From the NCBI GenBank assembly GCA_021736135.1, contig JAIPGO010000030.1:1-37536 (forward strand): 37,536 nt of DNA, in the 5' to 3' direction. The notes beneath the pieces were generated by a model, which had not been told where the DNA came from, searched no databases, and worked only from the letters and a program-made list of their open reading frames with translations. Position numbers and translations under genes: made by a program. Shown piece by piece: positions 31,474 through 36,429 of the stretch. The stretch is from Candidatus Cloacimonadota bacterium (GTDB lineage: Bacteria > Cloacimonadota > Cloacimonadia > Cloacimonadales > TCS61). Every line of letters begins with the position of its first letter. Position 1 is the first letter of the stretch.

Positions 31474-34400
31474 CTATTTCATTCTTCTCATCAAGCTATC
31501 TACTGGAAATTCATCAATATACCCCACACAAAATTGCAATATCAATGAAGCATCATAAGCCTCAACCATTCCATTACCATCAACATCAGCAACCTCAATC
31601 CGCCATTCCTCCCAGGGCAAAGTTGTACCCTCCGGCTCCATTAAACAAAAATACTGCAATACAAGAGAAGCATCTAGAGCATCAACTACGAGGTTATTAT
31701 CCGGATCACCATAAGGATACCCTCCTGTTATAATTTCTGACATCTGACTTGCATTACCATGACAATCATAAGCGCAAACGCATAATTCTCCCATTATTCC
31801 AACTATGCAGATCTCTGGTTCAATGCAGTTATTCAATAAATCATCATCTCGAAAAACACTGAAATATTCAAAATCACTATCAATTGGTTCACTCCAAAGA
31901 AGATATCCATTTTCAAATCGAAGCTCTGTTGGCACTATTGGAGCCAGATTATCTACTGAGTAACCTTGCTCAATAGCACTCACCCAGTTGCCTTCTTCCA
32001 TAGCTGCTATAATTCTGAAATTTATCAAACCATTATTAGCAGCGGTGGAATCATAAAGTGTATGTGCAATTACATTATATTCTTCCGCTCCATAACCATA
32101 AATCGAGTTAACTCCTGTCCACTCGTTATCAGTCTCTATTTCTATAGTGTAACCTTCTGCTGTTCGCAAAGTGTCTGTATCATAAAAACTTCTGGTAAAA
32201 TTGACATTTACCCAGCCACCCTGGTCTTCAGGTATATCCGTTATCGCCAGAATAACCGGCTCTACTAATTCCACTGTTATTGTTTCAGTATCTATAGCTG
32301 TATTAAATTGACCATATACAGTTAAAACAGCTTCATAAATTCCGGCACCGTCATATGTATGAAAAGGATTTTCCTCTACACTGATATCTCCATCTCCAAA
32401 ATCCCAAAGCAAAGAATCTATTGTACCAACAGAATGATTTATAAAAGTTACAGGATAAGGTGAACATCCATAATTACCGGATACATCAAAAGATGCTATT
32501 ACTTCTTCCGGTTCTATTACTTCAATGTAATCTTCTTTAGTTTCTGTATCTGTTCCATAAGGTCCATAAATTGTCAGAGATATTGTATATATCCCTGAAT
32601 TTTGATATTCATAAGCAGGATTTATCTCTGTACTAAATCCTCCATCCCCAAATTCCCAGAATAAACTATCTACTTCACCAGATGACATATTGATAAAATC
32701 AACTACTAAAGGCATTACTCCCAACAATGGTGTTGCAGAAAATTCAGCATCTGGCGGAATCTGTAACTCTAAAACTGTGATATAATCCGTCTTGGTCATT
32801 AAGTCGGTTCCGCCAGGTCCAGTAGCGGCTAAGCTTACACTGTAAGTTCCGGGAAAGGGATATATTTTAACAGGGTTAGGCAAAGAAGATGTTCCTCCAT
32901 CTCCAAAAAACCAGTGGTATTCAGTTACAGGTCCCGTTATATCCTGAGTAAATTGCACCACAAGTGGAGCTGAACCTTCTACTGGTTCCCCCGTAAAATC
33001 ATTAATAACAGGAGCTAGAGAACCCTGGTCAAAATAGAAAGCACCAATATCGGCAATAGTTCCATCAGGATCAGTATAGAGCGAATCAGGATCACCGGCA
33101 TCAATACAAGGTGAATCCTCTGTAATAGTGAAATCTAGATTTCCAGGATCTTCAAACATTGGGTCCATAAACAGATTACAATAAGTATCACAGGAATCTC
33201 CATTAGTATTTACAGCTACGATTTCCCCAAATGCTAGTGGCATTTCATTACCAGAACCATAACCGTTATAATTGTTTAACCAGAATATATTGTATTCCAG
33301 TGCAGATGTTACATTTTCAAGAAAAAGACTTATTTCATTAACATTAAAAATATTATTCCTGATCCTCAGGTGGGAATCATAATTGCAGGAGATTCCTCTA
33401 GTATTATCACTGATCGTGTTATTTCTAATGGTAGAGGAAGAACCATCGCAGGAGATTCCAATAAAACTATTATTGATCGTGTTATTGCTGATAGATGGGG
33501 AAGAAGAATGGCCTTTGAATCCCCGATAGTTGTAACTGATTTTATTGATGTTAATGACTGGGTTAGACCAAAGGCAGTAGATTCCATCGCTATTATTACT
33601 GATCGTGTTATTGCTGATGGTCGGAGTAGAATAATCGCATTGGATTCCATCATCACTATTATAACTGATCGTGTTATTGTCTATGATAGGGGAAGAAGAA
33701 GAATAGCAAGCAATGCCGTCATTATTATTATTATTGATAGTGTTATTGCTGATGTTCGGGGAAGAATGATCGCAGTGGATTCCAATAGTATTATTGCTAA
33801 TCGAGTTATTAGTAATAGTAGGGTAAGAATGAAAACAGAAGATTCCACGATTATTATTACTGAGAGCATTATTGCTGATGGTCGGGGAAGAGTAATCGCA
33901 ATAGATTCCAGTATCACTACTATCTAAGATCAGGCAATTATTGATAGCTGGATATGAACAATTACAATAAATTCCCCTATTTGCATATTCGATAATTGAA
34001 TAGGATATTACGCTGTTATCATCAGAATCGTTTTCAAATATAATACTATTCCAGTCATTAGGATTTAATGTTGGCTGCCCGGAAGTAAACCGGATACTGT
34101 CAGTTTCAGTTCCGATTGCAACCAGTTTTCCATAAATTGTGAAAGAACCATGATCCATAAATTTAACAGTTACACCAGGTTCGATTGTGAGTGAATCTCC
34201 ATTACTTATAGAGATATCACCCATTACATTATAAGTATATCCTGCCAGCCAAACCCCGTTTTGTGACCCGGTTATTTCAATCCCCAATGCCAGGAGTGTT
34301 ACCACTTCCAGTGTAGTATCGACAAAAAATTCAATTTCTCCTGGTATTGCACTAGTCTGCCAGCCTTCAAGTGAATATTGGACATTGTAAATACCTTCAT

Positions 34401-34623
34401 TAAGACCCATCAGAAATGAGCCGTCTGCATTTGTGTAAGTACTATCAGTATTTGCAGAAGCACTGGCAGCAGTGAAAAGAATTTTAATCCCTTCATGATT
34501 TTCTTCTCCATCCAGGTAACAAAAGCCGTCAATTGCTGCAAAACGAGTATCAGCAAACACCGATTGTGAACCAACTAATAATAGTGTCAAAATGATAAAG
34601 TAAATAATTTCTCTCTTTTTCAT
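31474..34623 (-). CDS. Beta-helix, PKD and dockerin surface protein
   Basis: The protein has 1049 residues. In order it has: a signal peptide (1-24); a carboxypeptidase-regulatory-like Ig domain (about 28-110, NADGSFLMGLNEGIYNVQYSLEGW); a right-handed parallel beta-helix (about 140-450) of NosD-type repeats such as SSPTISNNTISNNSDGIYC; a CIDAGDPDS...DIGAFYF segment (506-531) common after such helices; three PKD domains (about 538-617, 622-703, 708-785, with FGDGG or FGDGD motifs); a further beta domain; and a type I dockerin (about 971-1035) with two calcium loops, DPDNNLVVDALDASLVLQYF and DVDGNGMVEAYDASLILQF. It is probably exported. No cohesin partner is in the window, and it lacks the YPNPFNP sorting domain used by the two plus-strand proteins. 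Confidence 0.88.
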   Translation of the reverse strand: MKKREIIYFIILTLLLVGSQSVFADTRFAAIDGFCYLDGEENHEGIKILFTAASASANTDSTYTNADGSFLMGLNEGIYNVQYSLEGWQTSAIPGEIEFFVDTTLEVVTLLALGIEITGSQNGVWLAGYTYNVMGDISISNGDSLTIEPGVTVKFMDHGSFTIYGKLVAIGTETDSIRFTSGQPTLNPNDWNSIIFENDSDDNSVISYSIIEYANRGIYCNCSYPAINNCLILDSSDTGIYCDYSSPTISNNALSNNNRGIFCFHSYPTITNNSISNNTIGIHCDHSSPNISNNTINNNNNDGIACYSSSSPIIDNNTISYNSDDGIQCDYSTPTISNNTISNNSDGIYCLWSNPVININKISYNYRGFKGHSSSPSISNNTINNSFIGISCDGSSSTIRNNTISDNTRGISCNYDSHLRIRNNIFNVNEISLFLENVTSALEYNIFWLNNYNGYGSGNEMPLAFGEIVAVNTNGDSCDTYCNLFMDPMFEDPGNLDFTITEDSPCIDAGDPDSLYTDPDGTIADIGAFYFDQGSLAPVINDFTGEPVEGSAPLVVQFTQDITGPVTEYHWFFGDGGTSSLPNPVKIYPFPGTYSVSLAATGPGGTDLMTKTDYITVLELQIPPDAEFSATPLLGVMPLVVDFINMSSGEVDSLFWEFGDGGFSTEINPAYEYQNSGIYTISLTIYGPYGTDTETKEDYIEVIEPEEVIASFDVSGNYGCSPYPVTFINHSVGTIDSLLWDFGDGDISVEENPFHTYDGAGIYEAVLTVYGQFNTAIDTETITVELVEPVILAITDIPEDQGGWVNVNFTRSFYDTDTLRTAEGYTIEIETDNEWTGVNSIYGYGAEEYNVIAHTLYDSTAANNGLINFRIIAAMEEGNWVSAIEQGYSVDNLAPIVPTELRFENGYLLWSEPIDSDFEYFSVFRDDDLLNNCIEPEICIVGIMGELCVCAYDCHGNASQMSEIITGGYPYGDPDNNLVVDALDASLVLQYFCLMEPEGTTLPWEEWRIEVADVDGNGMVEAYDASLILQFCVGYIDEFPVDSLMRRMK
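33350..33930 (-). repeat. Degenerate tandem repeat encoding beta-helix rungs
   Basis: About eight units of roughly 69 bp (23 codons) encode the rungs of the parallel beta-helix, with a core of SSPTISNNTISNN and GIYCD. The units are divergent but in register. The repeat also leaves long open frames on both strands, which are by-products of its composition. Confidence 0.75.
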
Positions 34624-34805: not shown

Positions 34806-34832
34806 ATAATATTTCCTATTCAATCTTGTCAA
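34806..34832 (-). promoter_or_regulatory. Possible promoter for the dockerin gene
   Basis: On the minus strand TTGACA at 34832-34827 is followed by TATTAT at 34811-34806 after 15 bp, or TTATTT after 17 bp. It lies about 185 nt before the start codon, implying a long AT-rich leader (34624-34805) in which I see no other feature. Confidence 0.35.
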
Positions 34833-34899
34833 ATATAATTAAGATTAATTTAACATCCCCCGAAATTTTTAAATATCTCTCCTATTGTTGAGTTTCATT

Positions 34900-35086
34900 T
34901 CCCTGAAAGGGATATATTCGTATAGCGTAAGGTTGGCTCGGTACTCCGAGACTACCTTATGAATGATGCATTTCCTCCCACCCCATCGGCGCGCAGCGCC
35001 GATGGGGTGGGGGAGGGGCTCATTTTTTACATAAGGTAGCACCTTCTGTGCAACCTAACGCTATACAAATATATCCCGTACCGGGA
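34900..35086. repeat. Nested palindromic element, copy B
   Basis: A symmetric structure. Outer hairpins are at 34900-34912 (tccct/aggga) and 35074-35086 (tcccg/cggga). The 27-nt arms at 34909-34935 and 35051-35077 pair at 25 positions. Small hairpins lie at 34937-34950 (ctcgg/ccgag) and 35039-35051 (gcac/gtgc). Inner arms at 34952-34961 and 35030-35039 match perfectly over 10 bp. The apex has a perfect 13-bp stem (34980-34992 with 34996-35008) extended on both sides by C- and G-rich runs to about 34974-35016. The outer hairpins overlap the long arms by 3-4 bases, so the two pairings are mutually exclusive. The plan matches copy A at 78-216. No ORF lies inside. Confidence 0.7.
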
Positions 35087-35207
35087 ATTATAAGAGATAA
35101 ATCCTAAATATTACTCTATTAAATAACAAGTTAACCCATAGGATGAATAATTAAAACGTGGGGATGCCTGTTTATCTCTCTCTCGAAAAATACAAGTGAT
35201 TTCGTCT

Positions 35208-36275: not shown

Positions 36276-36416
36276 CTCACGACTCACGACTTACGATTCT
36301 TAACCATTAACGATTAACGACTAACAACTAACGATTAACGACTAACGATTAACGACTAACGATTAACAACTAACCATTAACGACTAACGATTAACGACTA
36401 ACAACTAACGATTAAC
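36276..36416. repeat. Heptanucleotide tandem array
   Basis: The core at 36306-36416 is 15 full 7-bp units plus a partial one, all of the form a(t/c)taac followed by g, a or c. The array decays leftward through attctta, acttacg and actcacg while keeping the 7-bp register. It is the longest such array in the window and ends 13 nt before a promoter. Confidence 0.9.
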
Positions 36417-36429
36417 TTCCAAAATGTTA

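Follow-up and report, generated by a model that had tools for sequence, protein, structure and literature searches.

What is the large nested palindrome at positions 34900-35086 of the DNA analysed here (a stretch of 37,536 nucleotides from a Candidatus Cloacimonadota bacterium, hereafter the window), and why does it stand where it does? The preliminary description of the locus reported several stacked levels of symmetry and every one of them is found in the letters: a left end hairpin TCCC-TGAAA-GGGA (34900-34912) and a right one TCCCG-TAC-CGGGA (35074-35086), the two 27-nt arms of a long cruciform (34909-34935 and 35051-35077, which pair with 2 mismatches in the window copy), one side hairpin on each flank (at 34937-34950 and at 35040-35050), a pair of 10-bp inner arms (34952-34961 and 35030-35039) and a GC-rich apex hairpin of 16 bp with a 3-nt loop (34977-34992 and 34996-35011). 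The end hairpins and the long arms have four bases in common (GGGA in the left hairpin, TCCC in the right one), so that the two forms exclude each other, as had been proposed. Local pairings are also present further inside: a left half-hairpin TAAGGT/ACCTTA (34928-34933 and 34954-34959, spanning 34928-34959) encloses the hairpin CTCGG-TACT-CCGAG (34937-34950), and the right inner arm CATAAGGTAG (35030-35039) can take part in the long form, by pairing with 34952-34961, or in a right half-hairpin. Folded as single-stranded DNA, the palindrome reached -66.9 kcal/mol on the plus strand (z = -12.9) and -67 kcal/mol on the minus strand (z = -14.4), and none of 200 shuffles was as stable, which bears out the earlier opinion that it is no random sequence. 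No Rfam family matched the window at gathering score.

The copy number of the palindrome provided the beginning of an answer. In its own genome (4.14 Mb in 148 contigs) it is repeated in at least 40 copies with 85-98% identity, so that the further copies on which the preliminary description had made its reading depend do exist. Aligning 40 copies with their flanks showed that the repeated unit is longer than the palindrome: it starts with (TTAA/TTCG/CTGG)CATCCCCCCGAAATTT, finishes with CGGGGGGATGCCAG, carries at its two ends, in nearly all copies, the terminal inverted repeats CATCCCCCCG and CGGGGGGATG, and measures about 310-320 bp. In the window, this unit extends from about 34850 to 35170, has no assigned strand and contains no open reading frame of 80 amino acids or more; the interval first singled out, 34900-35086, is thus its palindromic core and not the repeated unit. 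The left end TTAA-CATCCCCCGAAATTT (34850-34868, plus strand) is kept across copies, and the right end CGTGGGGATGCCTG (35157-35170, minus strand) corresponds to the family consensus given above. Direct target duplications of 11-18 bp, with a mode of 15, accompany 33 elements; in the window the left duplication site, TAATTAAGATTAAT, is found at 34836-34849, beginning 3 nt after a TGTCAA, and no matching duplication is recognisable on the right side of this copy. Because of these duplications and of the terminal inverted repeats, we consider the element as mobile, and because it is short, non-coding and multicopy, with common ends and direct duplications, we assign it to the MITEs. The palindrome is the interior of a MITE family. 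The earlier expectation of a processed or recognised structure is thus borne out in part: recognition is evident for the ends and the target site, and the palindrome itself is the inside of a mobile element and not an isolated processed structure.

The same two ends also delimit further short elements (150-660 bp) without coding sequence, single or in tandem. Tandem MITE runs with copies of the duplication between the units are seen in contigs C97, C105, C121, C141 and C109 of the same genome, as if new copies had repeatedly entered beside the same TTGACA. The window itself has another terminal end of the MITE superfamily (CGGGAGGATGCCAG) at 365-378, with TGTCAA outside it; the interior of this element, which begins GAGACTGTTCAACATCAG, is interrupted by the start of the contig, and GAGACTGTTCAACATCAG also follows MITE-type ends in contigs C97, C117, C131 and C57. 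Minisatellite-like tandem repeats of a short unit such as AACGATTAACGACT occupy the intergenic DNA at 36280-36420. None of 39 relatives contained the palindromic core, and searches of phage and plasmid records at the DNA level did not find the palindromic element.

Which of the two forms has been kept among the copies was examined on the alignment of the 40 copies from the window's own genome, where a model combining the two half-hairpins with the apex and the end hairpins paired 96.8% of the cells with a covariation score of 0.068, against 94.3% and 0.046 for the long cruciform and at most 0.021 for slid controls. The compensatory changes that had been named as a sign of selection on structure are present in the apex stem (97.8% of cells paired, four pairs changed on both sides, with several pair types) and in one pair of the left half-hairpin, pair 34:61 in alignment columns, which passes from A-T to T-A in 8 of the 40 copies, all of one subfamily. 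Since this double change destroys two pairs of the long cruciform, it favours the local half-hairpins as the form that is kept; the alternative pairings described at the outset are both real, but they are unequally supported. The 40 copies are related, so that the covariation counts do not represent independent events, and the same compensatory pattern could arise without any selection on structure if a quasi-palindrome served as the template for its own repair.

The origin of the mobility was found in related genera, by extending the loci matched by the target-site pattern described below. Full-length parents occur there as insertion sequences (IS) of 1.5-1.7 kb with MITE-type ends and a single open reading frame for a transposase of 431-465 amino acids, whose stop codon falls within the terminal repeat. 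The IS at locus L226 (1653 bp, ends CATCCCCCCGTTTT/CATCCCCCCGAAATTTT) is flanked by a perfect 17-bp duplication with TTGACA beyond it, and its terminal sequences CATCCCCCCGTTTTTTTT and CATCCCCCCGAAATTTTAG are the two MITE ends, the latter being the inner part of the left end in the window and also terminating the IS at L232; the IS at L211 (1585 bp) has a 13-bp duplication. The parent transposase matches DDE_Tnp_1 in Pfam, and the motif Y-(2)-R-(3)-E-(6)-K (YREK) is exact in 11 of 12 transposases, the twelfth reading frame being truncated at that place. The predicted structure (AlphaFold pLDDT 79) matches the Tn5 transposase over its whole length (Foldseek E 5.6e-13), so that the enzyme, as modelled, is a member of the IS4 family with a Tn5-like DDE fold. 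The curated IS4/IS701 models of NCBIfam were not reached (best scores 44 and 50 bits for cut-offs of 150-152), and the parent probably constitutes a new subgroup of the IS4 family.

Within the order, 34 of the 107 genomes carry homologues of this transposase, as do three genomes from another family of the class. The assembly of the window's genome holds no complete parent transposase; a C-terminal piece of 95 codons is found there at a contig end, beside TGTCAA. In the assemblies of relatives G041, G051, G078 and G079, many contigs break 20-125 bp inside such an element, and full-length copies are therefore probably under-counted. Viral contigs searched with the parent transposase returned nothing useful, and a protein search of plasmids retrieved only Thermus transposases with 23-24% identity.

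The most constant feature of these elements lies outside them. On one side only, in nearly all flanks, the duplication begins about 3 nt away from a TGTCAA, and the hexamer is conserved at this position in 61-63 element flanks; the order is thus, for MITEs and full-length IS alike, element, duplication, about 3 nt, and a TTGACA reading away. Among the full-length IS, seven of eight carry a duplication of 9-17 bp followed, after 2-4 nt (mostly 3), by TTGAC. In a set of IS loci collected by protein similarity and not by the TTGACA pattern (aligned transposases 31-57% identical to the query), TTGAC was found 15-25 nt beyond the GGATG-type 3' end at 24 of the 25 loci with a readable 3' end. Searching the 107 genomes of the order for TGTCAA-N14-26-CATCCCCC gave 262 matches, distributed over 58 genomes and 28 of 43 genera, against 5 for the reversed pattern. 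The window's own site (34827-34861) fits the pattern. Ends and targeting are therefore shared across the order, whereas the palindromic core is not. The MITEs mostly face the TTGACA with their CCGAAATT end, and the full-length IS (L226, L232, L239) with the CCGTTTT (3') end.

Judged from their position, the targeted hexamers are most likely -35 boxes, a reading based on the placement of genes and tRNAs, on orientation and on the window itself. There, the hexamer (34827-34832, minus strand, TGTCAA on the plus strand) begins a promoter-like match TTGACA-18-TATTTT and points to the gene at 31474-34623 on the minus strand, 200 nt further on, which encodes a surface-type protein of 1049 amino acids containing PKD and beta-helix domains. 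The statistics for the window's genome rest on about 445 kb of sequence pieces, 62% of it coding; only 5 of 61 targeted sites touch coding sequence. Where the downstream gene is visible (n = 48), it runs in the direction of the hexamer within 200 nt in 33 cases and in the opposite direction in none, while 142 non-coding TTGAC[AT] controls gave 57 in the same direction, 7 opposite and 78 far. The distance from hexamer to the start of the gene or tRNA is mostly 27-112 nt in this genome, and at three sites ARAGORN placed a tRNA gene directly downstream: tRNA-Thr (L031:3309-3384), tRNA-Leu (L100:1592-1678) and, after an IS, tRNA-Ala (L256:1320-1395). A clean -10 box was sought behind the hexamers and a weak AT-rich motif alone, AAATATT at 15-17 nt after TTGACA, was found (log-likelihood 55.6 versus about 30 for three shuffles).

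Together, these observations lead us to a reading we hold with high confidence: the palindrome is the core of a MITE that is moved by an IS4-family parent and targeted just upstream of -35 hexamers. The transposase of the IS would supply, in trans, the cut-and-paste activity that mobilises the MITE. Of the two strand transfers, one would take place at a constant spacing from the -35 hexamer, the second 9-18 bp further upstream, where UP-element DNA would lie. Positioning is most likely achieved by direct reading of the hexamer sequence, since TTGAC is almost invariant and the -10 signal weak. Placed just upstream of promoters, the element would disrupt neither gene nor promoter, and presumably benefits from sparing both. 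Its interior can extrude hairpins, and the palindrome is in our view most likely either a by-product that maintains itself or an aid to transposition through its folding. Several points speak against the reading as a whole: no complete parent transposase in the assembly of the window's genome, no recognisable right duplication in the window copy, the different ends with which MITEs and full-length IS face TTGACA, the weak -10 signal and the kinship of the 40 copies.

Other explanations were considered for the element itself. It might be a functional structured RNA or a regulatory element (attenuator, sRNA or processed cruciform) which happens to be repeated, and the strong fold on both strands as well as the four compensated pairs of the apex would suit this idea. 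We regard it as improbable: it finds no Rfam family, the element lies upstream of the promoter and outside the predicted transcript, target duplications and terminal inverted repeats mark a mobile element, and covariation can also arise through quasi-palindrome repair. As for the parent, the first candidate was another IS4-type transposon (NCBIfam NF049925, with one in-frame TAG) found at C3:31437-33248 (L121:437-2248) inside the ends of a diverged copy of the palindromic MITE, with terminal inverted repeats loosely similar to those of the MITE (CTGACATTTCC). This transposon has its own internal terminal repeats, AACTCATATTTCCGAG and AACTGACATTTCCGAG, and is therefore nested in the MITE, while the exact MITE ends are carried by the L226/L211 type; the candidate was rejected, and that the MITE belongs to it is very doubtful. 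Homologues of this transposon at L160 and L165 end 14-18 nt from TTGACA, too few cases for a conclusion.

The fixed placement beside the hexamer could also be explained in other ways than by its direct reading. Loose insertion into AT-rich intergenic DNA, followed by selection for the copies that spare promoters, would agree with the 5 of 61 sites falling in coding sequence although 62% of the DNA is coding; yet such a process cannot fix the spacing to about one base at 24 of 25 independent insertions in many genera, nor yield 262 pattern matches versus 5, and we give it almost no credence. More serious, though we consider it rather unlikely, is the guidance of the transposase by promoter-bound RNA polymerase/sigma instead of by the hexamer, insertion then depending on promoter occupancy. 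The insertions lie where the upstream edge of a bound polymerase would be expected, the site has one fixed and one loose edge, close-range downstream genes point away in 33 of 48 cases and never the other way, and tRNA promoters are among the targets, all of which would suit such guidance. However, the -35 boxes known in bacteria are less strict than the near-invariant TTGAC of the targeted sites, which together with the weak -10 signal favours reading of the DNA, and the predicted transposase shows the Tn5 fold alone, without additional domains. There is only a modest chance that we are dealing with a polymerase/sigma-guided cut-and-paste group whose members all insert the same way round, about 3 nt to the upstream side of the -35 box, and that would be the bacterial counterpart of Ty elements.

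If the favoured reading is confirmed, these elements would constitute a group of bacterial transposons that insert in a defined direction and at a constant spacing relative to promoter -35 boxes, a behaviour conserved throughout the order Cloacimonadales and extending to other members of its class. This would account for the multiplication of the elements without damage to genes; their insertions could be used to chart promoters in an uncultured phylum, and their transposase would become available for placing DNA upstream of promoters. The case also illustrates that a striking palindrome can turn out to be the interior of a MITE.

Several known systems resemble this one in part. Like REP/BIME and ERIC sequences, the palindromes are intergenic, imperfect and present in tens of copies, but they possess terminal inverted repeats and target duplications, have a DDE-type parent in the place of a RAYT, and match nothing in Rfam; REP/BIME are defined by a Y1 transposase of the RAYT type and by the absence of target duplication, whereas here duplications and a DDE partner are present. 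The yeast elements Ty1, Ty3 and Tf1 insert at a safe site just upstream of promoters, with tRNA genes among their targets. Our elements share both features, in a bacterial cut-and-paste DNA transposon for which no tether protein is known. With the bacterial MITEs Correia, MITEAba12, QMITE and BrickBuilt (reviewed in PMC10969869) they have in common a short, non-coding sequence, terminal inverted repeats, duplications, many copies, a frequent position near genes and, for some of those MITEs, palindromic parts; the differences are that the nested palindrome of 190 nt forms a sequence family of its own and that those MITEs act via internal promoters or sites, while here the relation is a fixed one to a pre-existing promoter motif outside the element.

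The parent agrees with the IS4 family (PMC2266710; subgroups IS231, ISH8, IS4, IS10 and IS50) in its YREK motif, single-ORF DDE transposase, size of about 1.5-1.7 kb and Tn5 fold, and in ends of the 5'-CAT type like those of IS231 and ISH8. Its duplications (9-17 bp in seven full-length IS, 11-18 bp in the MITEs) both overlap and exceed the 7-13 bp, about one helix turn, described for that family. It differs from the family by an oriented insertion about 3 nt from TTGACA; the words promoter and TTGAC are both absent from the text of that review. A fixed, oriented insertion adjacent to the -35 box was found in no report of the literature searched, ISfinder and most subscription journals lying outside its scope. 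The nearest described behaviour is that of IS1202/ISAjo2 beside dif sites (PMC10132070), which insert in one orientation 5 bp from the XerC site of dif/pdif and thus, like the present elements, at a constant distance of a few bases from a short motif of the host. Those IS have a TnsB-like transposase, other terminal repeats, a 5-bp duplication and a dif/pdif target, whereas our target is TTGACA and the duplication 9-18 bp. The parts of the system are therefore of known kinds, a MITE and an IS4-family IS, and what appears as new with respect to the literature searched is their fixed and oriented placement next to the -35 hexamer.
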